Below, in pieces: positions 18,847 through 57,564 of a stretch of DNA of 64,000 nt. Position 1 is the first letter of the stretch; every line of letters begins with the position of its first letter. The notes under the pieces are model-generated. The model searched no databases. It was not told where the DNA came from and saw nothing but the letters and a program-made list of their open reading frames with translations. This DNA comes from Candidatus Streptomyces philanthi (GTDB taxonomy: Bacteria > Actinomycetota > Actinomycetes > Streptomycetales > Streptomycetaceae). The stretch covers positions 4,216,001 to 4,280,000 of the forward strand of contig CP073042.1 of assembly GCA_018114805.1 (NCBI GenBank). The letters run 5' to 3'. The translations under genes and the position numbers were made by a program.

Positions 18847-20211
18847 GTGCAGAAAGTGACGGACCGGGGCGATGCGAGGCTGGCTGCCGTGGTGGGGCTC
18901 GCGCAGGCGATGGCCGCCGCGCACACGGCACGGGAGTCTATGCGTGCCGCCGCGCTGAGCGCGCTGGCCGCGCTGGAGGGGTCGTTCGCCGCGATCTGCG
19001 TGTGGGAGCGCGAGCTGGGTCGGCTGCGGGTGCTGGTCAACGTCGGGGAGCTGGCGCCGGGCGAGGAGCAGTTCCCGGTGGACGAGGCGTACCCGGTGCA
19101 CGACTTCCCGGAGATCACGGAGTTCCTGCACGAGCGGTGGATCAACGGCGGCGAGCCGCGCGCCTGGGTGGAGACGGCGTCGGGCGAGGTGGCCACGGAC
19201 TGGGCGGCGGCCGAGGCGCCCGGCTCGGGTGGTGGGCGCCGTGGCGGGGCGCGGTCCGGGCGGGTCGCGGCGCTGCGACGGCGCGGCCGGGGCTGCTGCG
19301 TGGTGGCGCCGATCGTGCTGCGCGGGCGGGCGTGGGGCGAGCTGTAAGTGGCGCGGCCCCCGGGGCGGCCGGCGTTCGACCGGGCCGACGCCGACTTCGC
19401 CACCGTGCTGGCATCGGTCACGGCCGCCGGGATCGCCCAGAGCGAGCGGCTTGAGGAGGCGCACCGGCTGGCCTTCACCGACCCGCTGACCGGGCTCGCC
19501 AACCGGCGCGCGGTGGACATGCGGCTCGACGAGGCGCTGGAGGCGCACACCCGGCGGGGCGCGGTGGTGAGCCTGGTGGTGTGCGACCTCAACGGGCTCA
19601 AGCGTGTCAACGACTCGCTGGGCCACGAGACGGGCGACCGGCTGCTGGAACGATTCGGCTCGGTGCTCTCGGTGTGCGGGGCGATGCTGCCGGGGGCGCT
19701 GGCTGCCCGGCTCAGCGGCGACGAGTTCTGCCTGCTCGCGGTCGGCCCGCCGGCGGACGAGGTGGTAGCGGTCGCCGACGAACTGTGCCGCCGGGCGGGC
19801 GCCCTCGAACTGGGTGAGGGCGTGGCCTGCGGCGTGGCGTCCACCGGCGACCCGATCGGCCCGGTGCGCTCGGCGCGCCGGCTGTTCCGGCTGGCGGACG
19901 CGGCCCAAGTACCGCGCGAAGGCCGCCCACGTGGACCGCCCGGTGGTCGCCGGTCGCGACGGCGGCACCAAGGACCCGGTGGTCCGGCTCGCCGACGCCC
20001 CGGCCCCCACCGCGGACCGTCGCCGCATCCGTGGCCGGGGCCGGGGCAACGGCGCCTCCCGGGGCAAGGCCGCCCCCCAGCCCGGCGGCGCCCCGGGCGG
20101 CACGCTCGGCGCCCCCGCCTCCCCGGGCGCCGGCAACGGCCCCGGCGGCGGTCTGTCCGGTGGCGGTGGCGTGCCCGGCGGCGGGCTGGCGGGGGCCGCG
20201 GGCGGCGGTGA
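18847..20211 (+). pseudogene. cdgE: GAF-GGDEF diguanylate cyclase (CdgE-like), broken
   Basis: An N-terminal GAF domain (to about residue 165) is followed by a GGDEF domain with LAFTDPLTGLANRRAVD and active-site RLSGDEFCLLA; no RxxD inhibitory site precedes it. From memory, position next to hutH and the GAF-GGDEF order match Streptomyces CdgE. There are two lesions. An in-frame TAA at 19345-19347 stands where RGRAWGEL-(Y)-VARP should continue. An extra A near 19910 shifts the frame, so RLADAAQYRAKAAHVDRPV is split. Beyond this a Gly/Pro-rich tail has no clear end. c-di-GMP synthesis from this gene is probably lost. Start GTG 18847 is uncertain. Confidence 0.8.
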
Positions 20212-20790
20212 GCGCGGGCGCGGGCGCGCGGCGGGTCTGGAGGCGCTCGGCTCGGCTGGCGCGGGCTGCCGACGGGGGGCGTGGCGCGCGGGGCGCCGGT
20301 GGACGTCGCCCGTACGCTGCCCCGGCGCTCAGTGGCGTCGCGCCCAGAGGATCAGCAGGGTGACGAGCGCCGAGCCTCCCGCGCTCGCCGCGCCGGCCAG
20401 GGCATGGAGCGCGAGGCGGCGGGTCAGCCGCCGCCACCGGCGGGGCCGACCCGGTGGCGGCGCCTGTTCGCCGTCGTGGGGGCGGTGGCTGGGTGGGTGG
20501 GTGCTGGTGATGGCTCCTCCTCGGGTCGGTGCTGGCCGGTGTCGCTCACTGTCGACCGGCGGTAGGGAGTTGCGGCAAGGGGCGACGGGGGGTGCGTGGG
20601 GAATCGGCGACACCGCCCGGCACCCGTCGCCGGGGCGGCGCCGGGGTGTCGCCGATGTGACTGGCAACGGTCGAACCGGTCGTCAGCCGTACACCGGGCC
20701 GCGATAGTCGGGGAGTTGGCGGTCGTCCCCGCCGACACGAGCGGCGGGACACGTCACCGGGCCCGCGACACACCAAGTCAAGAGGCGGGC
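20212..20790. other. Non-coding region with 12-bp inverted repeat
   Basis: 579 bases between the broken cyclase and the repeat-protein gene. ATCGGCGACACC at 20603-20614 and GGTGTCGCCGAT at 20645-20656 form a perfect 12-bp inverted repeat around a 30-base GC-rich loop, a hairpin or operator. On the minus strand, 20329-20595 could encode a tiny protein with one hydrophobic helix (LALHALAGAASAGGSALVTLLILW), but it lacks a convincing start codon. Confidence 0.45.
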
Positions 20791-23026
20791 GTGGCAGGCG
20801 AGAGCACGGCAGGCGCACTGGCCCCGCTGAACACCGGACTGGCCGAGGACAAACGGGCGTTGGCCCAGACGCTGCGCGAGCTGTTCGCGTGCATGGACAT
20901 CAGCGTCCGGCGCTACGCGATACACTGGCACTTCGACAAGGGCACGGTCTCCCGCTACCTGAACGGTGGCCGGACCCCGCCCTGGTCGTTCATCGCGAAC
21001 CTGATGGCCGACCTCGCCGACGAGGGCAAACCGGTCACGGCCGAGGTCGAGCTGTTGCTGCGGGAGTTGCACGGCAGGTCGCGGCGGGCCGGCTCCGCCG
21101 CCTCCGAGGTCCAGCGGCTCCAGGACCGGCTCGCCGAGGCCGACGAGGAGGCGAGCCAGGGCAAGGCGCTGGCCAGGGCGCTGACCGAGGTCTTACGGGA
21201 CCGGGAACGGCGGCTCGCGACGCTCCAGCGCAAGATCAACCGGCTGGAGGACGAGCGCGCGGCGGACCGCCACGCCTACGGCCAGGCCCTGATCGCCTGG
21301 CGCGCCACCTACCAGGAGCTGCGGGAGGAGCGCGACCGGCTGCTGCACGAGGTGGACGACCTCCAGGGCGCGCTGGCCGACGCCAAGCGGGAGGTCACCG
21401 AGGCCGAGGAGCAGTGCACCCGGTTGGAGGGGCAGCTCGCGGAGGCCGAGAAGCGGGCCGGCGAGGCCGGCGAGCGCCCGGGCCTGCTGGAGATCCTGGA
21501 GACGACGGATCGTACGGCCTCGGTACCCCAACTGGTCGACCTGGTGACCCACCTGAGCGTGCCGGGGCGTACCGCGATGGCCACCGAGCTGGTGAAGTCG
21601 GCGGGTCAGTCGCGTCCGGTGGAGGAGGCCGCCTCCCTGATCGAGGCGCTGTACGGAGCGGGGCACCACCGGCAGGCGGAGGCGGCGCTGCCCGCCCTGG
21701 TGCTGGTGCGGCCCGCCGCCGACGCCGCCGTCTTCATCCGCCACTTCGGCGGGGAGGGCCTGGAGGCCGCCACGGCGACCGTCATGAAGACCTCGCTGGA
21801 GATCCACGCGATGTCCGACATCGCGCACGTGGCGCTGCGTCTGGTCCGGTTCGGGCAGACGGCCAGCGCGCGGGTGTACCTGGGGGCCGCCGCCACCGTC
21901 AAACCCGTCGCGGACGTGGTGGACCTGGTCGTCCTGCTCGACGGCGTGGGCGCCCGGCAGACGGTCGAGGCTGCCCTGGAGGTGTGCGCGCGGGAGCGCT
22001 CCGTCCAGGAGGTGGCCGAGCTGTGCGAGCTGTTGGCGCTGGGCCCGTCCCGCGAGGCGGCGGCCTGCCTGGAACGGGTGGCGGCCGAGACGCGCCTCGC
22101 CCGTGACGTCGTGGACCTGGCGGTGATGGTCTCCCGGTTCGCCTACTCCGGCGCGGACCGGCTGCTGTGGCACAGCGTCGACCACCGGCGGCACGAGCAC
22201 GGGCACCTGGTCGCGCTCGTCACGGCGCTGCACACGGCGAGCCTCTAGGAGGGGGCCACCTGGCTGCTCTCCCACGCGGTGGGCGACTGGAGCGTGCCGG
22301 AGGTCGGGAGGCTGGTGGGCGCGCTGTACGCCGCCGGACACTGGCGGCACGCGGTCGACGTACTGACCCAGGCGCTGCGCGCGCACGGCCCGGACGAGGC
22401 GGCCACGCGAGCCGGGTCTTCTGGAGGGGCCTGCGCAGCCACTTCGCCGGGCACGCGGTGCACCGGTGCGCAGCGTGCGTCACGGTGGCAGCGACCTGCT
22501 GGCCCCCGCCGCGTTGCGGGATCACGCCCAGCGGGCCTCGGTCGGCGACGTCGTGGAGCTGGCCTGCGCCCTGGCGGCGGCCGGGCATCCCCAGGACGCG
22601 CGCTCCCTGCTGGCCCAGGCGTGCAGCGGCGACCGCGCCCGTTTCCTGGGCCTGCTGTCGGGCCTGGCCAGCCGGGACGAGCGGCTCGCGCGGTCGCTCG
22701 TACGGGACGTGGCGCTGGGCGCGCCGTTCCCGGAGCGGGTCAGGCTGGCGGTGGCGCTCGCGGCCTCCTCCGCCGAGACCGCCGCGTACGAGCAGTGCCT
22801 TCTGGAAGCGCTGCGCCAGGGGGACCCGGGGGAGCTGGCCGAGTTCACCTGGCTGCGCAAGGCCGCCCGCAAGAAGTGGAAGAAGGCCCTGTACCAGGTC
22901 GCCAGGGACGGCCTGCGGTGCGAGCGCAGGCAGCGGCAGCGGGAGTTCGTCCGCAAGATACCGGGGCTCGCGGGGCGTGGGGCGGACGAGGCGGCGGAAG
23001 CGGAGGTCGCGACGAACGGATGGTGA
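20791..23026 (+). pseudogene. HTH / coiled-coil / 32-residue repeat protein, broken
   Basis: GTG start with GAGGCGG upstream. Residues 20-75 form an XRE-like helix-turn-helix (ISVRRYAIHWHFDKGTVSRYL). About 100-235 is a long charged coiled coil. From residue 244 on there are consecutive alpha-helical repeats of exactly 32 residues starting at 244, 276, 308, 340, 372, 404, 436 and 468. TAG at 22246-22248 (codon 486) falls inside the eighth repeat, and the same frame continues into another repeat unit (VGRLVGALYAAGHWRHAVDV). Two more frame changes lie near 22415 and 22470; the last frame ends at 23026. Codon 135 is TTA (21193-21195), so translation would need bldA. Family unknown to me. Confidence 0.75.
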
Positions 23027-23051
23027 CAGGTCGCGATTCAGTCTCTAGGGT
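23023..23051 (+). promoter_or_regulatory. hutH promoter, nearly leaderless
   Basis: GTGACA (23023-23028) and TAGGGT (23046-23051) are separated by 17 bases and fit the -35/-10 of a vegetative (HrdB-type) promoter. The ATG of hutH begins 8 bases after the -10 and has no ribosome-binding site, so the mRNA probably starts at or very near the ATG. The -35 overlaps the stop of the upstream broken gene. Confidence 0.6.
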
Positions 23052-23059
23052 GCCTGAAT

Positions 23060-24616: not shown

Positions 24617-24678
24617 CCCCACGGGGAGGCGCCCCAGCGCGACCGGGCCCGCCGGACAGCCGGGCCCGGCCGGGTGCT

Positions 24679-25072: not shown

Positions 25073-25570
25073 ATGAGCACTCCGGAAACATCCACGTTCG
25101 TACGGCTTCGCGTGGAGTTCGTACTCGACATCAACGACGCCGAACAACTGGCCGGCGCCGCGCGGGAACAGATCGACGGCGACGCGTTCATGCCCGAGGA
25201 GGAGCGCGCGCACGCGCGGGTGGCCATCCGCGACGACCAGGCCGAGGCGCTCGCCTACCTCATCGACCCGTACGCCCTGGTCAAGGAGGTGCCCGGGATC
25301 GAGCTGGCCCAGGCGTCGTGGAGCAGCGAACCCGTCGACTACGACCCGGACGCCCAGGTGTGGGGCCTGGACGACGACGAGGACCTGTACGACGACCTGC
25401 CAGACGACTGTGGGGACGAGGACGGCGCCGCCCACGACGTGGGGCTCGGCGGGCGGATCGACGCCGCGGCGGACGACCCCGACGCCTACGACCCGGCCGG
25501 CGGCTGGGCGCAGGGCGGGCTGGGCGGGAGGGTAACGAAACCGATGCGGGAAGGGGGCGGCGGACGCTGA
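25073..25570 (+). CDS. Conserved hypothetical acidic protein
   Basis: 165 residues, no membrane segment. The N-terminal 75 residues look folded (FVRLRVEFVLDINDAEQLAGAA, a strand-helix pattern); the C-terminal half is Asp-rich and probably disordered (DDDEDLYDDLPDD). ATG at 25073 is 9 bases after a TACGCT -10-like hexamer, so the message may be leaderless. I recognise it as a streptomycete conserved hypothetical only. A rho-independent terminator follows at 25586. Confidence 0.85.
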   Translation: MSTPETSTFVRLRVEFVLDINDAEQLAGAAREQIDGDAFMPEEERAHARVAIRDDQAEALAYLIDPYALVKEVPGIELAQASWSSEPVDYDPDAQVWGLDDDEDLYDDLPDDCGDEDGAAHDVGLGGRIDAAADDPDAYDPAGGWAQGGLGGRVTKPMREGGGGR

Positions 25571-25585
25571 CCCGTACCACCGGAG

Positions 25586-27293: not shown

Positions 27294-27410
27294 GTGGTGG
27301 GTGAGCGCGAGGAGACGGGCGCGCTGGTGGAGCGGGTGCTGCGGGAGGTGCTGAGCGTGCCGGCCGGCGCCGACGCGGACGCGGACCTGCCGCTGGACGC
27401 CGGCGCGCAG
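27294..27410 (+). pseudogene. Truncated acyl-carrier-like N-terminus
   Basis: GTG start after GGGAGG. MVGEREETGALVERVLREVLSVPAG followed by DADLPLDAG resembles helix 1 of an acyl or peptidyl carrier protein, where LGMDSL would be expected next. The similarity stops at about 27405, exactly where the truncated thioesterase on the opposite strand also stops. I read this as one side of a deletion junction. The short length limits confidence. Confidence 0.4.
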
Positions 27411-27789: not shown

Positions 27790-29269
27790 CTACGCCGCGG
27801 CCTGGCCCCCGCCGCCGACCCGGGCCAGCAGTTCGACGCCTCCCGCGCTGCCGACGTGCGCGTACCGCGCGGTGGGGTGCAGTTGGCGGGCGTAGTCGAC
27901 GAGTTGGTCCGGAGTGCGGCCGTTCGGCTCGTGCAGGGCGATGTAGTCCGGCAGCACGCCGCGGGTGTCGCCGATCCACAGCACCCGGCAGCGCTGCGTG
28001 AGGCGGCTGATGGGTCCTATGTTGGCCTCCACCGTGGCATCGTCGGGGACGCGGTCGAGCAGGTGTTCCGCCCCGTTGACCCAGGCCGGCTTGCGGTAGG
28101 TGTCCGCCTCGGTCAGCCCGGCCATGGGCAGCGCGGTGCACAGCGCCAGGCCCGCGGCGGCGGCCGCGGCCGGCAACTGGTCGGCGTAGCCGCGCCGGCT
28201 GAGCCGTGAGCGCTGGACCGAGTCCACGAGGGCGAGGAAGACCACCGGCATCAGCACGGCGCTGTAGTGCCAGTCGGTGCCCCAGTAGTGCTCCTCGTGC
28301 GAGACGAAGCGCCACCCCAGCGTCGGCAGCGCCACGAGCAGCAGCGGGGAGCGCAGCGCGAGCAGCCCGGTGGTGGGCACCAGGACCCAGGCCAGCGTGC
28401 GCAGCGCCGTCTCCAGCAGGATGGTGGGGGCCGGGCCGCCGCCCTCGGCGTCGATCTTGTTCCAGTAGTCGTACGAGCCGCTGGTGTTGAACTCCGGGAT
28501 CACCACGCTGAGCGCGAACGCCGAGGCCAGTACGCCGAATCCGATCAGGCCCAGGGCCAGCGGCGTCACCTTCTCCTGCGCGCGGCGCCCGCGCAGGAAC
28601 AGCACCACGCCGATCGCCGCGACGGTGGCCCCGAGGTCCTCCTTGACCAGCACCAGCGGCGCCGCCCAGCACGCCGCTGCCGGCCAGCGCTCGCGCAGCA
28701 GCGCCTCCAGGGCGAAGGCGATCAGCGGGACGCCGAAGCAGATCTTGTGGAAGTCGAAGTCCACGGCCCGCTGCACGCTCCACGAGACGCCGTACGCCAC
28801 GCCGACGGCCAGGCCACGGCGGCGGCCGAGCAGGCGCGCCGCGACCCGGGTGACCGGCACGGCCGAGACGGCGAACAGCAGGGCCTGCGCCACCAGCAGC
28901 GTCACCGGGCTGGGGAAGACCCGGTAGAATGGCGCGAGCAGCGCGGTGACCGGGCTGAAGTGGTCGCCGAGCACGTTGGTGCCCGGTCCCTTGAGGTGGA
29001 CGACGGGCGCCTGGAAGTGCGCGTAGGAGCGCACCGCCTGCTCGAATATCCCCAGGTCCCAGGACATCGACGCGAACCGGCAGTAGCGGGTGACCGACAG
29101 CGTCGCCGTACGCCGCGAACAGCGCGGCGGCCAGCCAGTACGGGTCGAACCTGGCCTCCCGCAGCCGCCGCGCGAGGCGCCGCGGTCGGTGCCCGGTGGG
29201 CTGCGCGTCGGGGGAGCCGTCGGGCACCACCGCCTCGGCTGAGGCGGCGACGGAGGGGGCCGAATCCAT
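27790..29269 (-). pseudogene. DUF2079 polytopic membrane protein, one frameshift
   Basis: About 490 residues if restored. ATG 29269 begins MDSAPSVAASAEAVV. FDPYWLAAALFAAY then meets an extra G near 29113, after which ATLSVTRYCRFASMSWDLGIFEQAVRSYAHF continues in the next frame. SMSWDLGIFEQ and the later GDHFSPVTALLAPFYRVFPSPVTLL are DUF2079 hallmarks. About ten membrane segments precede a soluble C-terminal domain. Resembles GT-C type glycosyltransferase folds; substrate unknown. The part from 29067 down is still open. Confidence 0.8.
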
Positions 29270-32340: not shown

Positions 32341-33753
32341 CTACGGGGCGGGCGCCTGGGCCGGGGCGCGGGCGGGGCCGCGAGGAGCAGCGCGCCCGCC
32401 GCCAGGGCCGCGCCGGCCACGCAGGTCGCCGGCCAGCCGCCCGCCGCCCAGACGCCCGACGTGATCGCCGAACCCGCCACGCCGCCGGCGAAGTAGTTGC
32501 TCATGTAGGCGGAGTTGAGCCGGTTGCGGGCCTCGGGACGTACCGCGTACACCAGGTTCTGGTTGCTGATGTGGACGCCCTGCACGGCCAGGTCCAGGGT
32601 CAGCACGCCGAGCAGCAGCGCGGCCACCGCCCACGGGCCGCCGGGGCCGGCGGCGAGCAGCGGGCCCCAGGAGAGCAGCAACAGCAGCGCGCCGACGCGG
32701 CTCACCTGGTGGGCCAGGCCGCGGTCGGCCAGCCGGCCGCTCATCGAGGCGACGAGGGAGCTGGCCGCGCCCACCAGGCCGAGGAGCCCGATCGCCGAGT
32801 CGGACCAGCGGTAGTCGGGCCCGGAAAGCAGGAAGGTCATCGCGGTCCACAGGACGCTGAACGAGCCGAACGTCAGCGCCCCGATCGCTGCCCGCCGCCG
32901 CAGCACCGGCTCCTGTCCGAGCAGCTCGGCCGTCGAGTGCAGCAGCGCCGGGTAGCGGAGCGTGGAGGTGGGCCGCAGCCGGGGCAGGTAGCGGTGGAGC
33001 AGCACCGCGAGGATCGCCATCAGGGTGGCGTTGACCTAGTATGTTGACCTAGTATACGGTACGCCAGCCGCCGAGGTCGGCCAGTACGGCGGCGGCCGTG
33101 CGGGCCAGCAGGATGCCGAGCAGTAGCCCGGACATGACGGTGACCACGGTGCGCCCGCGCTCGTGCGGGGCGGCGAGGGTGGCCGCGTACGGGACGACGA
33201 CCTGGGCCGCGACCGAGGCGAAGCCAGTCAGGGCGGTGCCGACGAGGAGCAGGGCCCCGTTGGGGGCGCTGGCGGTGACCGTGAGGAAGGCGGCGGTGGC
33301 CGCGGTGAGGCCGACCGCGAGTCGCCGCCGCTCGACCAGGTCGCCGAGCGGGACCAGCAGCACCAGGCCGAGCCCGTAGCCCACCTGGGCCACCGTGACC
33401 ACGAGCGCGGCCAGCGAGGAGCCGAGGCCCAGGTCGTCGCCGATGGTGTCGAGGAGGGGCTGGGCGAAGTAGTTGCCCGCCACGGACAGGCCGGCCGCCA
33501 CCGACATCAGCAGCAACAGGCCGCGCCCGATGCCCGGCGCGCCCGCGCCCGCGTCCGGCTCGGCGCTGCCCGCCCCGTCACCACCCGACCCGGCCGCGTC
33601 CCGCACGGCGCCTCCCGTCCCGGCCGCTCGCGACCCGTCCCCGCGCGGTCCGCTCCCGTGTGACCCGGTCGCGGGCGACCCGCTTCCGTGCGTCCCGGTC
33701 GCGGGCGGCCTGGCCGCGTCCGGCGCTGTCCTCCGTACGCCGTCGTCCCGCAT
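32341..33753 (-). pseudogene. MFS exporter disrupted by 13-bp tandem duplication
   Basis: ATG at 33753 with GGCGGAG upstream. A Gly/Ser-rich N-terminus is followed by six membrane helices (MSVAAGLSVAGNYFAQPLLDTI, LGDLVERRRLAVG, ATLAAPHERGRTVVTVMSG) ending ILLARTAAAVLADLGGWRTVY. A 13-bp direct duplication at 33031-33056 then introduces TAG and shifts the frame. The other half (ATLMAILAVLLHRYLPRL onward, YMSNYFAGGVAGSAITSG) follows in a new frame and ends at 32341 or in another frame further on. YNFM/Bcr-like family. Drug or metabolite export would be the expected role. Confidence 0.8.
33031..33056. repeat. 13-bp tandem duplication inside MFS gene
   Basis: TTGACCTAGTATG and TTGACCTAGTATA stand directly side by side (33031-33043 and 33044-33056). 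Each carries a CTA that reads TAG on the coding strand. Removing one copy restores the frame across the transporter, apart from the TAG that stands where Trp (TGG) is expected. Confidence 0.85.
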
Positions 33754-34000
33754 GCTATACTCCGCCATCCTCGCCGCGCGCCTCCTGTCGGGCCGGTCGT
33801 GCTCCGCGCGTCGGAGCGCGGTGCCCGCCCGACCCTCCCCCGACGGGGACGGGGGCGTCCAGCGCTTAATCGCCTGGCCACCCATCGTGCTCGCCGACCG
33901 GGGCGGGGCGCCGGGGGACGGCGTGCGGGAGGGGGAACCCGGGGCGCGTGCGGCGTTTTGTCCAGTTGGGCCGACTGAGCACGGACAAGATGGGGTACTC

Positions 34001-34464
34001 GTGGTGCATGAACATCCAGAGCATGGCCCCACCACCGGTCATCCGACGGGCTTGGCCTCGGACGCGGTCGTCGAGCTCGCCATCAAACGCGACCTCCTGG
34101 TCGGCATCGCGCCCTTCGTGGCCGGGCTCGCCGTCGTCGCCGTGCTTATCCTGGCCGTGGTCTACGGCCTCCGCCGCCGCGACCGCGAGCCGCCGCCCTC
34201 GCAGGAGCCCCAGCGGCGCTCCGGCGCGTGGGAGACCTCCGACGAACACCGCTCCGGCCACTGCCCACCGGACCACGGCCCCGGCCACCAGGAGGGTGGG
34301 GAGATCGGCTACGAAACCCAGCACCGGGTGCCGGACGAGGTGCCGAAGCACGACGGACGGCACCGGATGATGCCGTACGAGTTCAAGGACCCAAGGACCA
34401 CGGCAACGAGGGCACCAGGCCCGCCCGCGAGGGCGAGTACACCGGCCGGCGCCGCCGCAAGTAG
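34001..34464 (+). pseudogene. DUF6479-like small membrane protein, frameshifted by 8-bp duplication
   Basis: One transmembrane helix (LLVGIAPFVAGLAVVAVLILAVVYGLRRRD) is followed by a hydrophilic tail with PDEVPKHDGRHRMMPYEFK, the DUF6479 pattern. CAAGGACC is duplicated in tandem at 34384-34391/34392-34399, shifting the frame. Without one copy the protein would end DHGNEGTRPAREGEYTGRRRRK at the TAG ending 34464. Start is GTG 34001/34004. ATG 34008 would give the more typical MNIQSMAP start but requires a further frame change. Function unknown. Confidence 0.65.
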
Positions 34465-38895: not shown

Positions 38896-40668
<1,773 letters not shown>

Positions 40669-43786: not shown

Positions 43787-44766
43787 GTGCCCGCACCCCG
43801 TCTCCACCGCGTCGCCGTCCTCGTGCTCGAAGGGGCGAAGCCGCTCGACGTCGGGATTCCGGCGCAGGTCTTCACGACCCGCGCGAGCATGCCGTACGAG
43901 GTGCGGGTGTGCGGGGCCGCGCCCGGCCGGGTGACCGGTGGTGACGGCCTCGCGTACGACGTCGCCCACGGCCTCGACGCGCTCGCCTGGGCCGACATCG
44001 TCTTCGTCCCCGGTTACCGGTTTCCGGACCGCGACGACCCGCCGCCAGCCGTGGTCGAGGCGTTGGTCGACGCCCACGGGCGGGGCGCGCGGCTGGCCGC
44101 CATCTCGACGGGCGCCTTCGCGCTGGCCGCCACGGGCCTGCTCGACGGCCGGCGCGCCACCACGCACTGGCACTACACGCGCGCCCTCATGGCCAGGTAC
44201 CCGCAGGTCAAGGTGGACGAGAACGTGCTGTACGTGGACGAGGGCAGCGTGCTCACCTCGGCCGGTGCGGCCTCCGGCATCGACCTGTGCCTGCACATCC
44301 TGCGCGGCGACCTCGGCGTGGCCGCCTCCAACCACGCGGCCCGACGCCTGGTCGCGGCCCCCTTATCGCAGCGGCGGCCAGGCCCAGTACGTACCGCGCA
44401 GCGTGCCTGAGCCGCGCGGCGAGCGGTTCGCCGCCACCCGCGAGTGGGCGCTGTACCGGCTCGGCGAGCCGCTGACCCTCGACGTACTGGCGCGGCAGGC
44501 GGGGGTCTCGCCGCGCACGTTCTCCCGTCCCTTCGTCGAGGAGACCGGCTACACGCCGATGCAGTGGGTAATGCGCGCCCGCATCGACCTCGCCCGCGAA
44601 CTGCTGGAGCGCTCGCAACGCAGCGTCGAGCAGATCGCCGCCGACACCAGACTCGGCACCGGCGCCAACCTGCGCCTGCACTTCCAACGCATCCTTGGCA
44701 CCACTCCAACGCATCCTTGGCACCACGCCGAGCGAGTACCGGCGCACCTTCACTCGGGGCGAGTAG
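43787..44766 (+). pseudogene. GlxA-like AraC regulator (DJ-1/PfpI + HTH), broken
   Basis: GTG start. The N-terminal amidase-like domain is HRVAVLVLEGAKPLDVGIPAQVF to about residue 190, with STGAFALAATGLLDGRRATTHW. An extra T near 44372 breaks ...LVAAP-YRSGGQAQYVP. The AraC HTH continues in the next frame (LTLDVLARQAGVSPRTFSRPFVEETG, then QIAADTRLGTGANLRLHFQRI). A 22-bp perfect tandem duplication at 44683-44726 destroys the final LGTTPSEYRRTFTRGE. Two independent lesions in one gene. Confidence 0.85.
44683..44726. repeat. 22-bp perfect tandem duplication in AraC gene
   Basis: Two identical 22-base copies, 44683-44704 and 44705-44726, each beginning TCCAACGCATCC and ending GGCACCAC. 22 is not a multiple of three, so the AraC frame is lost. 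Deleting one copy restores the conserved AraC ending. Confidence 0.92.
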
Positions 44767-45000: not shown

Positions 45001-45989
45001 ATGACTCGCATCGCCATCAACGGATTCGGCCGCATCGGGCGCAACGTGCTGCGCGCACCGCTGGAGCGCGACAGCGCCCTTGAGGTCGTGGCCATCAACG
45101 ACCTGACGGAGCCCACCGCCCTCGCCTGGCTGCTCGCCTACGACAGCACCTCCGGCCGACTCGGCCGCCCGGTGACCGTCGACGGGGACGTCCTCGTCGT
45201 GGACGGCCGCCGGATCAAGGTGCTGGCCGAGCGCGAGCCGGCGCAGTTGCCGTGGTCCGAACTCGACGTCGACATCGTCCTGGAGGCCACCGGCCGCTTC
45301 ACCGCGGCCAAGGCCGCGCGGGCCCACCTGGACGCGGGCGCGCGCAAGGTGCTCGTCAGCGCGCCGTCCGACGGCGCCGACGTCACGCTCGCGTACGGCG
45401 TCAACACTGACGCGTACGACCCGGCCGCGCACACGATCGTCTCCAACGCCTCCTGCACCACGAACGCCCTCGCGCCGCTGGCTGCGGTCCTGGAAGAACT
45501 CGCGGCCATCGAGCACGGTTTCATGACGACGGTGCACGCCTACACGCAGGAGCAGAACCTCCAGGACAGCCCGCACCGCGACCCCCGCCGCCGGCGTCAA
45601 CATCGTCCCGACCACGACCGGCGCCGCCAAGGCCATCGGCCTGGTCCTGCCGCAGCTCGACGGCAAGCTGTCGGGCGACTCGATCCGCGTCCCGGTACCG
45701 GTCGGTTCGATCGTCGAACTCAACACGACCGTCGCCCGCGACGTGTCCCGCGACGACATCCTGGCGGCCTACCGCAAGGCGGCCGAAGGCCTCCTCGCCG
45801 GCGTCCTGGAGTACTCGGAAGACCCCCCTGGTCTCCTCCGACATCACGGGCAACCCCGCCTCGTCCATCTTCGACTCGGCCCTCACCCGGGTGGACGGTC
45901 GCCACGTGAAGGTGGTCCCCTGGTACGACAACGAGTGGGGCTTCTCGAACCGCGCGATCGACACGCTGGAGCTGCTGGCGGCCGGGTGA
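45001..45989 (+). pseudogene. Glyceraldehyde-3-phosphate dehydrogenase, two indels
   Basis: ATG start after GGGAAGGGAC. The NAD-binding start TRIAINGFGRIGRNVLRAPLE and catalytic [13 protein letters not shown] (Cys near residue 153) are intact. After [14 protein letters not shown], bases are missing near 45585, and [22 protein letters not shown] continues in another frame. An extra C near 45825 shifts again, and [44 protein letters not shown] end the gene at TGA 45987-45989. Total length 989 is not a multiple of three. Probably a non-essential second GAPDH copy. Confidence 0.88.
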
Positions 45990-46093: not shown

Positions 46094-46298
46094 GGGGTTT
46101 CCCCGCACGTGCGGGGACCAGGGATTCTCCTGGAACGGCGGGCCGACGGATGGGCGGCCACCCCCGCGCGCGGGGACCTGTCGGCAAGGTCTGCCGGTGG
46201 GTTCGCGGACGCGGGACCATCCTCGCGCACGGGGACCAGCGCAAGATGCGCCAATGCATCTTGCGTTGCCCGGGACCATCCTCGCGCGCGGGGACCAG
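46094..46298 (-). CRISPR. Degenerate four-repeat CRISPR array
   Basis: The motif GGGGACC recurs at 46113, 46172, 46231 and 46290, exactly 59 bases apart, giving four 28-base repeats (46094-46121, 46153-46180, 46212-46239, 46271-46298) and three 31-base spacers. The two right-hand repeats differ at one base; the two left-hand ones are strongly diverged, as expected for old leader-distal repeats. Sequence type is I-E of streptomycetes. The leader lies to the right, so the array reads on the minus strand. The third spacer is a near-perfect hairpin. Confidence 0.75.
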
Positions 46299-46932: not shown

Positions 46933-48119
46933 CTACAGAGGCAGCCCTACGACGTCGGCGAGGCGTCGCATCTCGGGCGTCAGTGTGCGGCCCCGCTTGA
47001 CCACGTCGCCGAGGATGTCCTGGGCGTATCGCTGCTAGGCCAACCATTCGGGAACCCGAGCGTGCACCTCTGACAGAACCTTCACGGCCTGGGCATGGTG
47101 TCGCATGCGGACGTGCGCTGTTGCCACGTCGAGCTGATGCCGGTTGAAGCCGTTCTGCACTCGGCCCGCGTCACTCGTGTGTGCCTCGGTGCCTCCCGCG
47201 ATCTCCAGCACCTTGTCGGGGCGGTCCACGATCATGTGCTGCTCCGCGCGTTTGTAGGTGACCGTCAGCGGCCCCCACGCGCCCATGCGGCGCCTGACTG
47301 GCAGCTCGTGGCCGGTCATCACCGCAGCCGCTTGCGCGAACCTCAACGCGTCGCCGGCCTCGCCCGGTCGGTTGTCGCGCGCGCAGGCCGATGCCAGGTG
47401 GAGGAGCAATCCGCCCCACGCTGCCAGGTCCCCCGCCGTGGCCCGACTCACCCTCGGCTCGACGTCGTCCGCCCATCGCGTCGCGAGCGTACGAGCCTGC
47501 GCCAGCTTGCCTTGCCTGATCGCCAGCCAGCACATGGTTCCGGCGACGGAGGCACTTCGATGCCGCCCTTGGGCGGCGTCCAGGGCTCGCCGAAGCGCCG
47601 TCTCGGCAGCGTCGTATGCCGGGTCTGCGTAAGAAGGGAGCCGGCGAGATGGAGTACGTAGGCGTACGCCTCGCGTCCCTCGTCTCCCAGCGCCTCTGCG
47701 TCGCGCAGCGCGGGCGGAAGCAATGTGGCGGCTGTGGCGAGCTGGTTGGTCGCCCAGGCCCTCCCCACGGCATCCGCCGCCGCTTGGACGCCTTCCAGGG
47801 TGGGTGCTTCGGTGGCGGTGTCTGTCGGCGGACGCTCCACGGCGTGCCGGACCGGGGCCCACACCTCGGCGTCCGGTGACGCGTCGGGGTCGGCGCCTTC
47901 GGGGGATTCGCGACGGTCGAAGAGCTGCGTCGTCGGGACGCGAAGGGCGGTGGCCAGCTTGTGAGCGGTCTCCAGGCGCGTGTGATCGAGCTGCTCCTGC
48001 TCCAGCTTTCTGATCAGGGAGATGGGAACGCCGCTGGCCTCGGACAGCGCCTTCTGCGAGAGGCCGCGCCGTTTGCGGATGTCGCAGAGAGTCGCGCCCA
48101 TGCTGATGCTCTCGGACAT
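46933..48119 (-). pseudogene. XRE-family regulator with TPR-like C-terminus, broken
   Basis: ATG 48119 with GGAG upstream. The HTH is ATLCDIRKRRGLSQKALSEASGVPISLIRKLEQ. The long helical domain changes frame near 47635, where AYDAAETALRRALDAAQGRHRSASVAGTMC continues. At 47035-47037 a TAG interrupts VPEWLA-stop-QRYAQDILGDVVKRGRTLTPEMRRLADVVGLPL, after which the same frame runs on to the natural end at 46933. Typical of a regulator paired with small DUF proteins in streptomycetes. Confidence 0.82.
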
Positions 48120-48253: not shown

Positions 48254-49473
48254 CTACACGCCACCCCACTCCGCGAACTGCCGCAGCGGGTCGGCGGCAC
48301 GTTGGCGGGCCCGTAGGAGGGTGCCGACGGTCTGGTGCACGTCGGGGTGGTAGCGGGTCAACTGTGGCGCTGCTTGGCGGGGGCTTGGAGCAACGAGTCC
48401 AGGGCCGCCTCGTGTCGAGCGGTCCACGCTTCCGCCACGGCCTTGCGAATCAGGAAGCCCGCAACCCTGGTCGGCTGGTACGTCGCCGGGAGGCGTACCT
48501 CCGAGGCGACCCGCACAGCCGTCTCGTGGTCGTCCTGGAGGAGGGCGACGTCCAACCTTCCCAGCGAGACGTTGAGTTCCCCGAAGGCCAGGGCGTAGCT
48601 GGTGCCGGGCGGGTCCTGCGCCGCGTCGGCCCGCTCGCCGGCCGCCACGACCTCGGCCGCCTGCTCAAGCCAGTCGCTCGCCGCGGACTTCCGCTGCTGC
48701 ACGGCCGACAAGGCCGAGGCGCGCAACAGCAGCGTGCCGCGTACCGCCGAGGCCTGTGGGTCGCCGTCCTCTTCGAGGTCGCCCAGTGCCTGCTTGACCA
48801 GGGCCACGCCTCGGTCGGGGCGCGACGCCTCCGCATGCGTGATCACGGCGCGTTCGTACCGCTCGACGGCCACCTGGCGCGGATCGCCCGAGTTGCGGAG
48901 CGGCGGCCATGCGGGCGAGGGCGAGCCGGGCGAGGTCCATGTAGCCGAGTCGGTACGCCAGGATGGCCGTGGTCCGAGCCACCTCCGCCTGGAGGTAGTG
49001 CGCGCGCTCCCGTGCCGTGCCGGGCGCGGTGTGGGTCTGCACGGCGAGCGTGGTCGCCGCGATCGCCTCGGGAAGCCCTCGGTGACCTGGGCGAACTCGC
49101 CCTTCGCGCGCAACCGGGAGAGCTCCGAGACCCGCCCGGCCACCGCGTCGAGGGAGTCCTGCGGCATGTCGTCGTCCGGCGGGATGTCCCATGCGTCGAG
49201 CGCGCTGCTGATCGCGGCGAGCAACCGGTCGAGCTGCTCCTTCTGGAGCATGTGGACGTATGGCTGCCCGTGCAACACGGAAAGGGTTCCCCCGAGGGCC
49301 CGTGCGACGGCTGCCAGAACCGAGGGGCTGGGGGGTTGTTCTCCGTTTTCCACGCGGGAGGGTTGACTCGTCGAGACGTGCGAACGCTGGCTGAGTTGGG
49401 CCAGCGTGTAGTCGCGGATGAGCCGGAATTCGCGGATGCGGGTACCTGTGTGCTTGTCTTGGACGTCGGGCAT
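48254..49473 (-). pseudogene. XRE-family regulator, three frame changes
   Basis: ATG 49473, GGGGAG upstream. HTH: GTRIREFRLIRDYTLAQLSQRSHVSTSQPSRVENGEQ. The frame is lost near 49075 (LPEAIAATTLAVQTHTAPG ... YLQAEVARTTAILAYRLGYMDLARLALARMAAA is in another frame) and regained near 48890 (RNSGDPRQVAVERYERAVITHAEASR). A further shift near 48360 hides the ending LTRYHPDVHQTVGTLLRARQRAADPLRQFAEW, which stops at 48254-48256. A long open frame to 48358 exists only because the first two shifts compensate. Confidence 0.8.
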
Positions 49474-50211: not shown

Positions 50212-50643
50212 TCAGGTGCTGCTGTGGGGCCCGGTGGGGCGAGCCGATCTCGATTCCGCCTCGGTCGCGAGGGGTGATGCCGGGACCTGGTGCGGGGTCG
50301 CGGCGCCGGCGGGGGGCGGTGCCGTGAAGTGTTCGAGCGTACCGGTGATGGTGAGGAGCCGGTCCAGTTTCGGAGGCCGGTCGTCCAGGTGCAGGCGCAC
50401 CCCCGCCGCGGTCGCGCGGCGGTGGATCATCAGCAGGGCCGACAGGCCCGTGGAGTCGATGACGCCGACCCGGGCGAAGGACAGCAGCAGGCTGTTCAGG
50501 TCGCTCCGGGCCCCGAGGCGGGTGGTGGCCTCCTCCAGGAGGAGGCCTGCGCTGTCGTAGTCGAGGTCCCCGGTGATCTCGATGCGGACGCCGTCCTCGG
50601 CTTCGACCGTGGCCAGGCGCAGGGTGGGTGGCAGGGTGGTCAT
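50212..50643 (-). CDS. STAS-domain anti-sigma factor antagonist
   Basis: 143 residues. STAS fold with VRIEITGDLDYDSAGLLLEEA and the phosphorylatable serine in VGVIDSTGLSALLMIHR. A disordered Pro/Thr tail follows. In RsbV/BldG-type partner switching the serine is phosphorylated by a kinase and dephosphorylated by a PP2C such as the one encoded upstream. Its ATG overlaps the stop of the B12-binding gene (ATGA). Confidence 0.9.
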   Translation of the reverse strand: MTTLPPTLRLATVEAEDGVRIEITGDLDYDSAGLLLEEATTRLGARSDLNSLLLSFARVGVIDSTGLSALLMIHRRATAAGVRLHLDDRPPKLDRLLTITGTLEHFTAPPPAGAATPHQVPASPLATEAESRSARPTGPHSST

Positions 50644-51726
50644 GCGTGTCGTCCGGCGTCGGTGGGGGAGTCGGTGGTCAGGGTCTGGGAGCCGCGCTCC
50701 AGCAGGTGGACGGCCCGGGGGAAGTCCTTCAGCTCACGGGCGAAGAGGCCGAGGGCGGCCGGCAGGGACCGCGTGGGCACTCCGCGCGCCGCCAGGATCT
50801 GTTCGGTCCAGGTGAGGAACCGTACGAACAGGTCCTCGTCGCCGAGGTAGAGGGCCGTGCCGAGGAACTCCACAATGTGCGCGAGGTCTTCGGCCGTGCG
50901 CTCCCGCTGGGCCTCGTCGTACTCCCATCAGGGGAAGGGCGTCCTCCAACGCGTGGAAGACGGCCCGTACGAGAGCGTCACTGTTGCGGACAACCATCGT
51001 GTACTCCTGGTCGGCCAGGTGCGGTAGGTCGTCCATCTGCTGATGGTCGGGCCGGGGTTGCGGGAGCGGCCCCATGGCCAGGATGTCGGCGGCGGTACGG
51101 GCGTCGGGTGCCCATGCCTGGGCGCCCAGCAGGTGTGCGTACCGGCTGTCCGGGCCGAACGCGGCACCGCCGACCAAGTACTGGCACGCCCACGGCCTGG
51201 CACGCGGTGATCGCCGCGTGCGCGGTGGGCAGCCGGGTGGCGATGGAGCTGGAGAGCGCGACCGCGTCGGCGTGGGTGTGGTGCAGGCGCGAGGAGGGGA
51301 CCTGGGCGCCGAGGTAGTCGACCTGCCAGCCGCGCAGCGTCAACACCTCCGCGACCAGGCGGGCGGGCAGCGCGTGCCATTCGCCGTCGACGCAGGCTAC
51401 CGTGACCCGGCCCCGGTGCGCGGTCCCGCGCGCGGCGGGGTGCGTGGCGAGCGCCGCGACCACGCGTTCGTTGATGGCTGTGCCGGCGTGTCCTGGGCGA
51501 CGCTGATCCGGGCGGCGGCCCACTCCTCACCGACCTTGCCCTGCACCGAGGCGATGACGTCCAGGAGGACGGACTCGGGGTCGACGCCCTCGTCCAGGGC
51601 GCCCATGACGACCTCGGTGGCCGCGTGCTCGTCCTTGGCCGTCACGCTCTCCCACAGCCGGTCGGCCAGTTCGTCGAGGTGGGTGTCGCGGGGGAGCCGG
51701 GAGGGGGTGTTCGTGCTCGTGCTCAT
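50640..51726 (-). pseudogene. Cobalamin (B12)-binding domain protein, broken
   Basis: ATG 51726 overlaps the PP2C stop. The N-terminal helical B12-binding-2 region is DELADRLWESVTAKDEHAATEVV to KVGEEWAAARISVAQ. After a frame change near 51505 comes the Rossmann part RVTVACVDGEWHALPARLVAEVL, RGWQVDYLGAQVPSSRL, with His of EWHALP as the probable cobalt ligand. Another change near 51180 leads to GGAAFGPDSRYAHLLGAQAW. A last one near 50930 leads to a helical C-terminus ending at 50640. At least three indels. The design (sensor beside STAS and PP2C) suggests a B12-based stress or light sensor. Confidence 0.8.
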
Positions 51727-53405
51727 GCGGTGTACCTGCCCTGGGTGTGTCCGCCCACCGCGCTCAGGTGGTGAGTGCGGGGCGCCGAGATGGCGACCAC
51801 GGCCATGTCGTCGTGGCGGCGCTGCCCGAGCCACTGGGAGGCCAGCATCTGGAGGTGCTCCACGACGCCCTCCGAGGGCATCCCGGCGCATTCGGACAGG
51901 GCTCGTCTGAGGCGTTCCTCGCCGAACTGTGTGTCGCCCATCGGGCCGCCCTTTGCCTCAGTGAAGCCGTCGGTGTAGAGGATGCAGGTCTCCCCGGGGG
52001 GAGAGGGTAACCGCCACGGTACGGGCCGGGACCTCCGGCACCACCCCGACCAGGGTGCCGCGGGTGTCGACCTCCTCCACTGTCCCGTCCGCCCGGATGA
52101 TCAGCGGACTGGGGTGGCCGGCGCTGGTCAGCCTCACCTCGACGCCGTTGCCCTCGCGGACGGCGGAGGCCAGCACCAGCGTGGCGAAACGGGTGTGATG
52201 GGAGTTCAGCAGCGCGGTGTTCAGCAGGGTGAGCATCCGCTGGTGGTCGTCGGCCATGGTGAGCAGGGTGTTACGGATCTTGCCGGTGAGGACGGCGGCT
52301 TCGAGGCCCTTCCCGCAGACGTCCCCGAGGGCGACGAGGGAGGGTTGGCCCTCCACGGCGGCGGGGTGCACGTCGTAGAAGTCCCCGCCGATCCGCTCGT
52401 GATCCGGGGAGGCGCGGTAGCCGCCGGCGAAGTCTACCCCGGAGACCTGACGCAGCGTCGGCGGCAGCAGCTCCCGCATCAACACCTCGGTGATGCCCGC
52501 CTGCTCCGCGTACAGGCGGGCCGCGGACATGGCCGCGCCGGAGCGGGTGGCGAAGAGGCGGGCGAAGACCTCCTCCTCGTCGGTGAAGGAGGCGCTGCCC
52601 ACCTTGCGGAGCAACACCAGGGCCCCCGCGGGAACGCCGTGCCCGGGCAGCGGGGTGATGACGATCGAGCCGACCGGGCCGAACCCGGCCGGGATCATCC
52701 AGTCCGGGGCCGAGGCGGGGTCGATCCACCGGGAGGGCACCGGGGGGAAGCCGCGCAGCGCCTCACCGAGGCCGGCAACGTCCTCGGGCTCCACCTCCTC
52801 CTGCGACGTGCGGGGGAGTCGCCGCGCAGGCAGGTCACCACAGGCAGCCGGTGGCCCCGGGACGGCGCGATGGCCAGCGCGGCGTCGGCGAGGTGCTCGG
52901 CGGCCATCCGCGCGGTCACCTCCATGCAGCGCCCCAGGTTGAGGCTGGCGAGCAACAGGCTGGACGCCTTCGCCAGGAACGCGGTCCGCTCGCGCTGCGT
53001 GCGGAGCGCTTCGCGGGCGAGTCGGTGGTTGGTGTCGTCCACCAGCCACCACGCGACCGTGCCGTCGGCGCACAGCGTGGAGTGGGCCTCGAAGTGGAGC
53101 CCGTCGATCTCGCCGGACGCCGGGGCCGGTGCCTCCGGCCCCTGCTCACCCCGCGCGTCGGGCGCGGTCACCGCCCGGTGAGCCGCGGCCAGCCAGCCCG
53201 GGGCCACGTCGGTCAGGCGTGAGCCAGGATGGGCCGCGGGCAGCAGCGCCCGAGCCGCGTCGTTGTGCTGGACGAGGGTGCCCGACCCGTCAGCGACCAG
53301 TACCGGGTACGGGGCCTGGGCCCATGGGAAGTTCGGCTCCGCGTGCGTGACGGTGTCCGCTTGGGTGGAGACCACATTGGAGGACCCGCTGGGCGAATCC
53401 CTCAC
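51723..53405 (-). pseudogene. PAS + SpoIIE-type PP2C phosphatase, two frameshifts
   Basis: PAS-like N-terminus (QAPYPVLVADGSGTLVQHNDAARALL, then WWLVDDTNHRLAREALRTQRERTAFLAKASSLL), GAF-like middle, and PP2C domain with GGDFYDVHP and LGDVCGKGLEAAVLTGKIR metal sites. The frame shifts near 52815 (after VTCLRGD) and by an extra C near 51995, just before the conserved CILYTDGFTEA. The rest, EERLRRALSECAG ... HDDMAVVAIS, ends at 51723. GTG 53405 is a tentative start. It would dephosphorylate the STAS protein. Confidence 0.82.
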
Positions 53406-55581: not shown

Positions 55582-56135
55582 CGACCTGGTCGCCGAAGCC
55601 CGTTCGTACGGGCTTCCCCGCCGGCCGCACACCGAGCGGGCCGCCAGGCCCGCGACCAGCGTCGAGGGCGTCCACCAATCCGTGGGGTGGGCGCCCTCGA
55701 CGCGTGCGCGCGTTCCACGGGCGGCAGACGTACCGGCTCACGGCACGGGACCCGCGCGGTCGGGCGCGCGGGGTGCTCGCGGTCAGACCCGGCGGGCGCG
55801 GGACGCGAGGCGGTCGGCGAGCGCGCTGACGAGGTCGCGTAGTTCGGCGGGGCGCACGGCGACCGGGGCTCTCCCGGCCCGTCCCCGGCCGCGCCTCGGC
55901 GTCACCGCGCCGTCCCGGCACCGTCACAGCGCCTCGGCGTCACCGCACCGCCCCGCCCCGCACCATCACAGCGCCCCAACGTCGGGCCCGCGCCCGGCCG
56001 GGCAGCTGGGTGATTTTGCCGTTTCCTCAACCGCGCGCGGGACTGTCGCACGGGCAATCGGTGTTTTACGTGGCAGGTGAATCTTTCTGAGGTGCACCGA
56101 CACGACATCACCGCGTCTCCCTGGAGGTGTGCGAC
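55582..56135. other. Intergenic region between ndh and cfa with direct repeats
   Basis: 554 bases without a gene. Besides the hairpin at 55659-55703, GCGCCTCGGCGTCACCGC occurs at 55891 and 55929 with a period of 38 bases, the units continuing to CACAGCGCC near 55972. The last 100 bases are less GC-rich and lead into GGAGG at 56123. Confidence 0.5.
55659..55703 (+). terminator. Long hairpin terminator after ndh
   Basis: GCGTCGAGGGCG (55659-55670) and CGCCCTCGACGC (55692-55703) are perfect 12-bp arms, extended inward by CCACC/GGTGG. It lies 77 bases after the ndh stop; no T-run. Confidence 0.65.
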
Positions 56136-57564
56136 ATGGCCGATGCCGCTGGACGGCTCTCCGCGCTCGCTGAGGAGGTCCTCGGGACCCCGTTCCCGGT
56201 CCGCATCCGGGCCTGGGACGGCAGCGAGGCGGGGCCCCCGCCCGGCCCGTCCCCCGACACGGGAGACACCGGAAACCCCGGAGACACCGGAGACACAGCG
56301 GCCGCGGCGGCCGCCTCCGTGAAGCTGCCGACGCTGGTGGTGCGCAACCGCAGGGCCGTCCGCAGACTGCTGTGGCAACCGAGCGAACTCGGCCTCGCCC
56401 GTGGCTGGGTGGCCGGCTACCTGGACATCGACGGCGATCTGTACAGCGGCCCTCGACCTGCTCTCCGGGGTGCTGTGGGAGCGCGGCGAGGAGGCCGAGT
56501 CGCGGCGCGGCCTGCGCTTCGCGCTGAGCGCGGCCCGCGACCCCCGGCTGCGCTCCGCCGCCCGCGACCTGCTCGCCGTCGCCGGCCCGTGGCCGCTCCC
56601 CAAGCCACCCGCCGAGGAGGTCCGCGCGCGTCGCGGCCCGCTGCACACCCTGCGCCGGGACCGGGCCGCCATCAGCCACCACTACGACGTCGGCAACGAC
56701 TTCTACGAGCTGGTCCTCGGCCCGTCCATGGTCTACTCTTGCGCCTACTGGCCCGCCCCCGACGCCGCTTCCGGGCCCGCCGCGTCCCACGCCGCGGACG
56801 CGGATCTGACGCGGGCCCAGCGCGACAAGCTCGCCCTGGTCTGTCGCAAGCTGGGCCTGGAGCCCGGGCAGCGGCTGCTCGACGTGGGCTGCGGCTGGGG
56901 CTCGATGGTGCTGCACGCGGCCCGCGAGTACGGCGTACGGCCCGTCGGCATCACGCTCTCCCAGGAGCAGGCCGAGTACGCCCGCAAGCGGGTCGCCGAC
57001 GCGGGGCTCACCGACCGGGTCGAGATCCGGGTCCAGGACTACCGCCGGGTGAGCGACGGTCCGTACGACGCGATCTCCTCCATAGGCATGGCCGAGCACG
57101 TGGGCGCCGTGCGGTACGGGGAGTACGCGGCGCTGCTGTACGGGCTGCTGCGGCCCGGCGGGCGGCTGCTCAACCACCAGATCGCCCGGCCGCCGCAGCG
57201 GCACGAGGACGCCTACCGGGTGGACGAGTTCATCGACCGCTACGTCTTCCCGGACGGCGAGCTGGCGCCCGTGGGGCGGACGGTGAGCCAGTTGGAGGAG
57301 GCCGGGTTCGAGGTGCGCGGCCTGGAGTCGCTCCGCGAGCACTACGCGCTGACGCTGCGGGCCTGGGTCGGCAACCTGGAGCGGAACTGGTCGCGGGCGC
57401 TCCGGTACGTCTCGCCGGGCCGGGCCCGGGTGTGGCGGCTGTACATGGCCGCCAGCGCGCTGGCCTTCGAGCGCAACCGCATCGGCGTCAATCAGGTCCT
57501 CGCCGTCCGCACCCCGGAACCCGGCACCTCCGGGCTGCCGCTGCGCACCCGCACCTGGAACTGA
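56136..57564 (+). pseudogene. cfa: Cyclopropane-fatty-acyl-phospholipid synthase, one frameshift
   Basis: ATG 56136 with GGAGG at 8 bases. The start (ADAAGRLSALAEEVLGT) leads into a DTGDTGNPGDTG repeat linker and GWVAGYLDIDGDLY. An extra base (A in TACAGCGG near 56445) then shifts the frame. AALDLLSGVLWERG and the full SAM-dependent methyltransferase follow: ISHHYDVGNDFYELVLGPSMVYSCAYW, LLDVGCGWGSMVLHAA, SIGMAEHVG. All catalytic motifs lie in the downstream frame, open from 56401. If expressed from an internal start it would lack the N-terminal domain. Confidence 0.85.

Follow-up and report, generated by a model that had tools for sequence, protein, structure and literature searches.

Broken and intact genes in the window

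The 64,000-bp stretch of DNA analyzed here (the window) covers positions 4216001 to 4280000 of a 7,341,895-bp Streptomyces chromosome, which was assembled as a single contig with a completeness of 99.54. The G+C content across the window is about 69 to 77%. An initial annotation of the window described about 27 frame or stop lesions spread over some 16 genes (about 18 kb) between positions 18847 and 57564, along with about 35 kb of conserved genes free of lesions, and suggested nonrandom decay in an actinomycete in reductive evolution, perhaps host-adapted or long in culture. Comparison with two closely related genomes, those of Streptomyces buecherae AC541 and strain G164 (the sisters), demonstrated that the gene decay is real and specific to this lineage.

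Lesion counts from open reading frames (ORFs) alone were not trusted and were replaced by sister-genome alignment. The genes of the sisters were called with a simple codon-usage gene caller, each was aligned to the window, and frame-disrupting indels and in-frame stops were recorded. A gene was designated broken, with thresholds of our own choosing, if it had an in-frame stop within 3% to 92% of its length or if over 8% of the aligned bases were out of frame. In genes readable in both sisters, events seen against only one of them were dropped. Those dropped because they were seen only against S. buecherae were at 33542, 33554, 33689, 33715, and 44683, with four more at 56279 to 56321; those seen only against G164 were at 19201, 19203, 47665, and 47676, with three more at 44710 to 44719.

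With both references merged, the window contained 47 loci: 13 broken ones totaling 16.6 kb and 34 intact ones totaling 32.9 kb. The number of accepted lesions was 27, as first estimated. Eighteen were found against both sisters, and two of these (20191 and 32357) fall within a few codons of the end of genes that have other lesions. The remaining nine are in genes that could be judged from one sister only: three in 48254 to 49473, five in 50640 to 53375, and one at 47616, which had also appeared against S. buecherae in an earlier alignment. Broken loci extend from 18856 to 57564, in agreement with the span originally given. The decay described in the initial annotation was thus recovered, in slightly fewer genes than the 16 proposed: 13 broken genes plus one that was deleted.

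The first broken gene (18856 to 20211, plus strand) is a GGDEF (diguanylate cyclase) gene; Pfam assignments for broken genes were made from intact orthologues, as here, or from fragments in the window. The orthologue is 427 amino acids (aa) long in S. buecherae and has 460 aa in G164. It has one nonsense change and two frameshifts against both sisters, the second frameshift being in the last codons. A large gene with no Pfam match (20791 to 23026, plus strand; 777 aa in S. buecherae and 789 aa in G164) has a nonsense change, a 133-bp deletion, and a 1-bp frameshift. Only the first 117 bp align for a DUF2786 gene (27294 to 27407, plus strand) that encodes 433 aa in S. buecherae. The S. buecherae gene aligns over its full length in G164 (97%) and S. 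zagrosensis (76%); judged from these alignments, the DUF2786 gene is the fourteenth loss, almost wholly deleted. A DUF2079 membrane protein gene (27790 to 29269, minus strand; 500 aa in both sisters) is broken by a 1-bp frameshift near its start. An MFS transporter gene (32341 to 33768, minus strand; 459 aa in S. buecherae and 415 aa in G164) has a 13-bp insertion and a 1-bp frameshift in its last codons, against both sisters, and 1-bp and 8-bp frameshifts interrupt a DUF6479 gene (34008 to 34464, plus strand; 149 aa in both sisters).

Two adjoining genes for transglycosylases that resemble resuscitation-promoting factors lie between 36606 and 38895. The first (Transglycosylas and LysM domains; 36606 to 37720, plus strand) is broken by two nonsense changes and one frameshift, and the second (38164 to 38895) is intact. 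The first copy may have been lost as if redundancy had released one of the two. An AraC-family/DJ-1 regulator gene (43787 to 44766, plus strand) has a 1-bp frameshift, and a glyceraldehyde-3-phosphate dehydrogenase gene (45001 to 45989, plus strand; 332 aa in both sisters) has an 11-bp deletion and a 1-bp frameshift. Two HTH_3 regulator genes on the minus strand are broken, one (46933 to 48119; 395 aa in both sisters) by a 1-bp frameshift and the other (48254 to 49473; 406 aa in S. buecherae and judged against S. buecherae only) by three frameshifts. A group of STAS, B12-binding, and SpoIIE genes (50212 to 53375) is present in G164, and two of its three genes are broken here. These are a gene with a B12-binding_2 fragment (50640 to 51726, minus strand; 364 aa in G164), which has three frameshifts, and a SpoIIE-type phosphatase gene (51723 to 53375, minus strand; 553 aa in G164), which has two. 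The group, these two genes included, did not align in the collinear S. buecherae stretch. The last broken gene, for a cyclopropane fatty acid synthase (CMAS; 56136 to 57564, plus strand; 493 and 480 aa in the sisters), has a 1-bp frameshift.

Genes without frame lesions include those for a carboxyl transferase (529 aa; 13201 to 14790, minus strand) and enolase (428 aa; 39382 to 40668, plus strand), which have 98.3% and 98.0% nucleotide identity, respectively, to S. buecherae. An FtsX/MacB-type permease gene (842 aa; 57692 to 60220, minus strand), recognized from Pfam and sister alignment, is also intact; its product has 96% protein identity with that of S. buecherae AC541 and 88% with that of S. 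zagrosensis. A paralogue of this permease at chromosome positions 4960705 to 4963159 is in three pieces, one with an internal stop, whereas the window copy is whole. The 20 annotated intact genes further include those for DivIC, Maf, biotin ligase, phosphoglucomutase, and Ppx/GppA, as well as a p450, a GmrSD domain gene, and an EamA transporter. The presence of these last three indicates that an intact gene is not necessarily an essential one.

Sister-genome control and lesion pattern

S. buecherae AC541 is collinear with the window, its main pieces having about 91 to 96% nucleotide identity. When a stretch of the window was used as the query against a genus sample of 392 genomes, one near relative besides S. 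buecherae was found, G164, at 95 to 97%; the next match among those listed was 86%. G164 is one contig of 8,379,354 bp and is collinear across the window. It was taken to be strain ID71268, which was isolated from soil and is related to S. buecherae; members of the S. buecherae complex occur in bats, soil, and marine sediment (PMC10127220). The chromosome studied here is smaller (7.34 Mb) than those of S. buecherae (8.42 Mb) and G164 (8.38 Mb), and its intact genes have nucleotide identities of 96.8% to S. buecherae and 97.3% to G164.

In the region of the window, 10 of 43 genes were broken here in comparison with S. buecherae (identity, 0.960) and 12 of 46 in comparison with G164 (0.965), whereas none of 53 and none of 54 genes were broken when the sisters were compared with each other (mean identity, 0.967). 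The same difference was found in a synteny block of about 230 kb, in which the genes broken here numbered 60 of 158 from S. buecherae and 64 of 163 from G164 (mean identities, 0.953 and 0.964). Between the sisters, 0 of 174 S. buecherae genes were broken in G164 and 2 of 176 G164 genes were broken in S. buecherae (identity, 0.961). The sisters are as distant from each other as they are from this genome, yet their genes are almost all whole, and thus the breakage here is lineage-specific decay.

A second block, inverted in S. buecherae, had 33 of 118 genes broken, bringing the two blocks together to 93 of 276 genes (34%) and 123 of 304 kb. In the reverse search, 13 of 147 and 7 of 121 of this genome's genes were flagged as broken in S. 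buecherae. All but 3 of the flagged loci overlap loci already broken here, and the overlapping ones were read as remnant ORFs. An earlier run had S. zagrosensis as the outgroup for 40 broken genes, 36 of which are whole in that species.

The window is clearly not special: the surrounding block is more decayed, and samples from elsewhere on the chromosome look decayed. Eight 20-kb samples of this chromosome had a mean called coding fraction of 0.56, compared with 0.77 in eight S. buecherae samples, and the fraction of sequence in ORFs of at least 300 aa was 0.30, compared with 0.57; the samples were hand-picked at positions that are not orthologous, which makes this a coarse measure. A search for the p450 family gave 14 matches here, many of them with shorter open frames, and 17 in G164; no conclusion was built on it.

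One possible explanation for so many broken genes is error in sequencing or assembly, in which long-read indel errors in a high-G+C genome mimic pseudogenes. The 93 broken genes contain 349 frame-disrupting indels, and the 1-bp indels that such errors would generate are the commonest class (166 indels). However, 127 of these 166 are in runs of no more than two identical bases, and the same genes have 25 nonsense changes and 60 indels of at least 10 bp, a profile that is not like homopolymer error. Furthermore, 122 clustered lesions, a count in which small frame changes in intact genes are unscored, are concentrated in 60 genes, whereas about 80 genes would be expected to be hit if lesions fell at random by length.

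Errors would also be blind to the importance of a gene, yet breakage is rarer in conserved genes. Conservation was scaled by the protein identity between S. buecherae and S. zagrosensis, a measure independent of this genome. From the least to the most conserved quartile, 14 of 28, 18 of 29, 8 of 28, and 6 of 29 genes were broken (p = 4e-4), so that the less conserved half has 32 broken genes of 57 and the more conserved half has 14 of 57. Another 44 genes, 14 of them broken, were without an outgroup match in the stretches fetched. The original argument for nonrandom decay, that lesions avoid the intact part of the window, was circular because "intact" had been defined by the absence of lesions. 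No such circularity affects the sister control or the conservation test, and both lead to the same conclusion. We regard error as a very improbable source of the lesions.

Other features of the chromosome were noted during these comparisons. About 110 to 125 bp present in S. buecherae are missing from the window at each of four sites (near 9174 to 9186, 22399 to 22408, 25499 to 25509, and 36075 to 36084); the flanking alignments overlap by about 10 bp where they meet, the trace that deletions between short repeats would leave. A worn remnant of a CRISPR array (46158 to 46296, no strand assigned) has three imperfect repeats 59 bp apart; the corresponding S. buecherae stretch has cleaner repeats with 61-bp spacing. 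Both Cse1 loci of this chromosome (2966575 to 2968133 and 2180165 to 2181391) look broken, one being split between frames and one having a stop, and there is one uninterrupted Cse1 match each in S. buecherae and G164. The CRISPR system here seems, from these sequences, to be decaying too. At about 4.30 to 4.48 Mb of the chromosome, the collinear S. buecherae sequence breaks off at about 5.58 Mb and resumes, in inverted orientation, at 2.3 to 2.5 Mb, a large rearrangement. Synteny for the right-hand 180 kb was sought at 5.58 to 5.78 Mb of S. buecherae and was instead located, inverted, at 2.3 to 2.5 Mb. Ketosynthase matches of equal score, mirrored and partly broken, are present at both chromosome ends (73856 to 78439 and 7263456 to 7268039), which suggests terminal inverted repeats that would reach at least 78 kb inward.

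Selection and base composition

Changes in 97 genes (59 intact and 38 broken) from one chromosome region were polarized among this genome, S. buecherae, and G164, with S. zagrosensis as the outgroup. In broken genes, the ratio of nonsynonymous to synonymous changes (N/S) on the tip branch was 1.38 here and 0.68 in each of the sisters. In intact genes it was 0.86 here, compared with 0.51 and 0.45 in the sisters (p = 3e-5 and 2e-6). The tip branch for intact genes was 0.0192, about twice as long as those of the sisters (0.0096 and 0.0105), and own-only change at fourfold sites in these genes was about 2.4%. These results demonstrate that selection is relaxed and evolution is faster even in genes that still appear whole. 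A raised N/S in intact genes could not be produced by indel errors. The sister control, the relation to conservation, and the N/S raised on this lineage alone all bear out the initial suggestion of reductive evolution.

With no constraint, N/S would be roughly 3. The ratio in the broken genes is far below this value, which makes much of the breakage recent. Substitutions show that selection is relaxed throughout the sampled set, with the broken genes only weakly set apart. In the first polarized test, the odds ratio of N/S in this genome to that in S. buecherae was 1.67 for broken genes and 1.63 for intact genes; with the second sister, it was 2.0 for broken genes and 1.7 and 1.9 for intact genes. 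Unpolarized dN/dS (medians of 0.352 in broken and 0.221 in intact genes) was not used as proof because those genes are faster in the sisters too.

Broken genes have a higher G+C fraction (0.743) than intact genes (0.718), as do their S. buecherae orthologues (0.747 and 0.722), with slight G+C loss here in both classes. In the beewolf antennal symbiont Streptomyces philanthi, G+C enrichment was reportedly attributed to relaxed selection by Nechitaylo et al. in 2021. The enrichment of the decayed genes in the present genome may instead have been inherited. The polarized changes on this branch weigh partly against inheritance, because they are less biased from GC to AT in broken genes (691 GC-to-AT and 320 AT-to-GC changes) than in intact genes (539 and 165; p = 2e-4).

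Antibiotic loci, host confinement, and placement

Ketosynthase matches number 40 in this genome and 95 in S. buecherae. One modular polyketide synthase (PKS) here is long and uninterrupted, with 8 ketosynthase matches in six ORFs of 1,793 to 3,451 aa. Beside it are five uninterrupted tailoring genes, for an FAD-dependent hydroxylase, two methyltransferases, an asparagine synthase with a glutaminase domain, and a cyclase-like protein. We take this layout of PKS and tailoring genes to be that of piericidin. Together these genes are uninterrupted over about 49 kb, which, with the completeness of 99.54, also argues against pervasive sequencing error. A region of ID71268 was matched 100% to piericidin A1 by its authors (PMC10127220), and a 20-kb G164 stretch inside that region aligns to the cluster here at 90% over 12.3 kb. 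The piericidin-type cluster is thus predicted to be intact from its uninterrupted frames, although frames are not proof of activity.

The streptochlorin locus of ID71268, an assignment that its source presents as tentative (PMC10127220), is present here at 92%. The streptochlorin-type genes for a halogenase, an Na/H exchanger, and an FAD_binding_4 protein are intact, with broken genes close by. In the same stretch, an alpha/beta hydrolase gene and a 200-aa gene are intact, and aminotransferase, TetR, and FMN dehydrogenase genes are broken. For nigericin, whose region in ID71268 spans 187 kb, a 20-kb piece gave only 66 to 75% matches here, and the nigericin cluster is taken as lost from this genome.

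S. philanthi is described as a symbiont of beewolves with an antibiotic cocktail of piericidins and streptochlorin and with ongoing genome erosion (PMC10400980), an erosion likewise reported in a second account (PMC13345370). The intact piericidin-type cluster and streptochlorin-type genes match this cocktail, and therefore the host adaptation suggested in the initial annotation was a good inference. We consider it very likely that the window comes from a Streptomyces chromosome undergoing early genome erosion after confinement to a host. A host is probably the cause of the erosion, with an insect, the beewolf wasp, the most likely one. In a lineage confined to a host, bottlenecks and a protected niche would weaken purifying selection. 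Frameshifts, nonsense changes, and deletions would then pile up in dispensable genes, such as those for regulators, transporters, paralogues, and accessory enzymes, while the host is repaid through antibiotic pathways that, like housekeeping genes, would remain whole. The phenomenon itself is already known from the published erosion of S. philanthi.

Several points weigh against this interpretation. Lesions were judged by alignment of assembled sequence rather than from reads, and genes that aligned over less than 60% or scored below 30, hence outright losses, were left out of all counts. Small terminal or compensated frame changes are present in 11 of 98 intact genes. The relation to conservation is not strictly graded, because the second quartile is hit more than the first. 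Genes broken here evolve faster in the sisters too (N/S of 0.68, compared with 0.45 to 0.51), so that part of their raised N/S here reflects the genes themselves. The first quarter of a fourth, outermost gene beside the streptochlorin genes is unaligned. Finally, the piericidin cluster and streptochlorin genes are also found in ID71268, and a PKS with the same ketosynthase pattern is found in S. buecherae; thus, these loci alone are not diagnostic of the organism. Taken together with genome size and level of decay, they make "Candidatus Streptomyces philanthi" the likely identity, on which the case for erosion does not depend. Real erosion in a different host-bound or niche-bound member of the S. 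buecherae complex is an unlikely alternative. In its favor are the varied habitats of the complex and the piericidin cluster of a soil member, but a decayed 7.34-Mb genome with an intact piericidin-type cluster and streptochlorin-type genes fits the published picture of S. philanthi.

Long culture, the other origin that the initial annotation had proposed, would make this a laboratory or industrial strain, and Streptomyces do lose genes in culture. However, breakage of 93 of 276 genes, own-only fourfold change of about 2.4%, and raised N/S in intact genes are not of laboratory scale and would need far more generations than strain keeping provides. In addition, the antibiotic genes are among those kept. 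We give this origin almost no weight. Programmed frameshifting, phase variation, or recoding that keeps the genes in use is similarly implausible because, although readthrough of some 1-bp indels is conceivable, the lesions are a mixture of nonsense changes to all three stops, indels of up to 133 bp in the window, and a missing gene, are mostly outside homopolymers and often several per gene, and are accompanied by raised N/S. For S. philanthi, relatively few pseudogenes are described as detected as proteins (PMC13345370).

S. philanthi as described is like the present genome in having a genome of about 7.3 Mb with about one-third of genes frameshifted, in keeping piericidin and, putatively, streptochlorin, and in having accessory genes, regulators, and transporters hit. 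In 2021, Nechitaylo et al. reportedly described a linear chromosome of 7.3 Mb in which frameshifts affect more than one-third of genes, values that fit those measured here. Auxotrophy for biotin, proline, and arginine is another trait of S. philanthi. For its clade, 16S, gyrA, and gyrB accessions (KM035545 to KM035755) are named in PMC4236554. Mycobacterium leprae is likewise an actinobacterium with very many pseudogenes but is a pathogen with a smaller, further decayed genome and no antibiotic pathways kept. Symbionts of the Sodalis type are Gram-negative, and unlike them, this genome keeps a G+C content of about 69 to 77% across the window. What Sodalis and other recent insect symbionts have in common with it is early erosion with very many pseudogenes, as described in PMC13345370. 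For M. leprae, 1,133 pseudogenes and a coding fraction of less than 50% are given in PMC2753549. S. buecherae AC541 and G164 are collinear with this genome but are larger and nearly free of mutual breakage.

A tree of intact genes grouped this genome with G164 and placed AC541 outside (support, 100). Votes of 97 individual genes gave 71 for this genome with G164, 11 for the two sisters together, 6 for this genome with AC541, and 9 ties; the tree sample was one 230-kb region, in which recombination could mislead. On balance, these relationships favor an eroding lineage that is nested inside the S. buecherae complex as sister to the soil strain G164, with the bat strain AC541 outside, rather than an ancient separate branch. 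The nested placement is possibly new; none of the papers searched names both S. philanthi and S. buecherae.

The beewolf symbiosis has been dated to about 68 million years (PMC10400980). If the nested lineage is S. philanthi, then a symbiosis of that age would now be served by a lineage that separated, or was recruited, from free-living stock much later, and one-third of the genes would have decayed within that short time. The sister control shows that what might be taken for a bad assembly is genuine recent erosion in a large antibiotic-producing chromosome, and the pathways that survive intact hint at the remaining needs of the host. Near-identical relatives with whole genes (97%) provide a clean before-and-after pair. 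Such a pair could be used to measure the rate at which Streptomyces genes decay after host restriction and the order in which functions are lost, and to test whether the beewolf symbiosis is ancient at the level of the strain.

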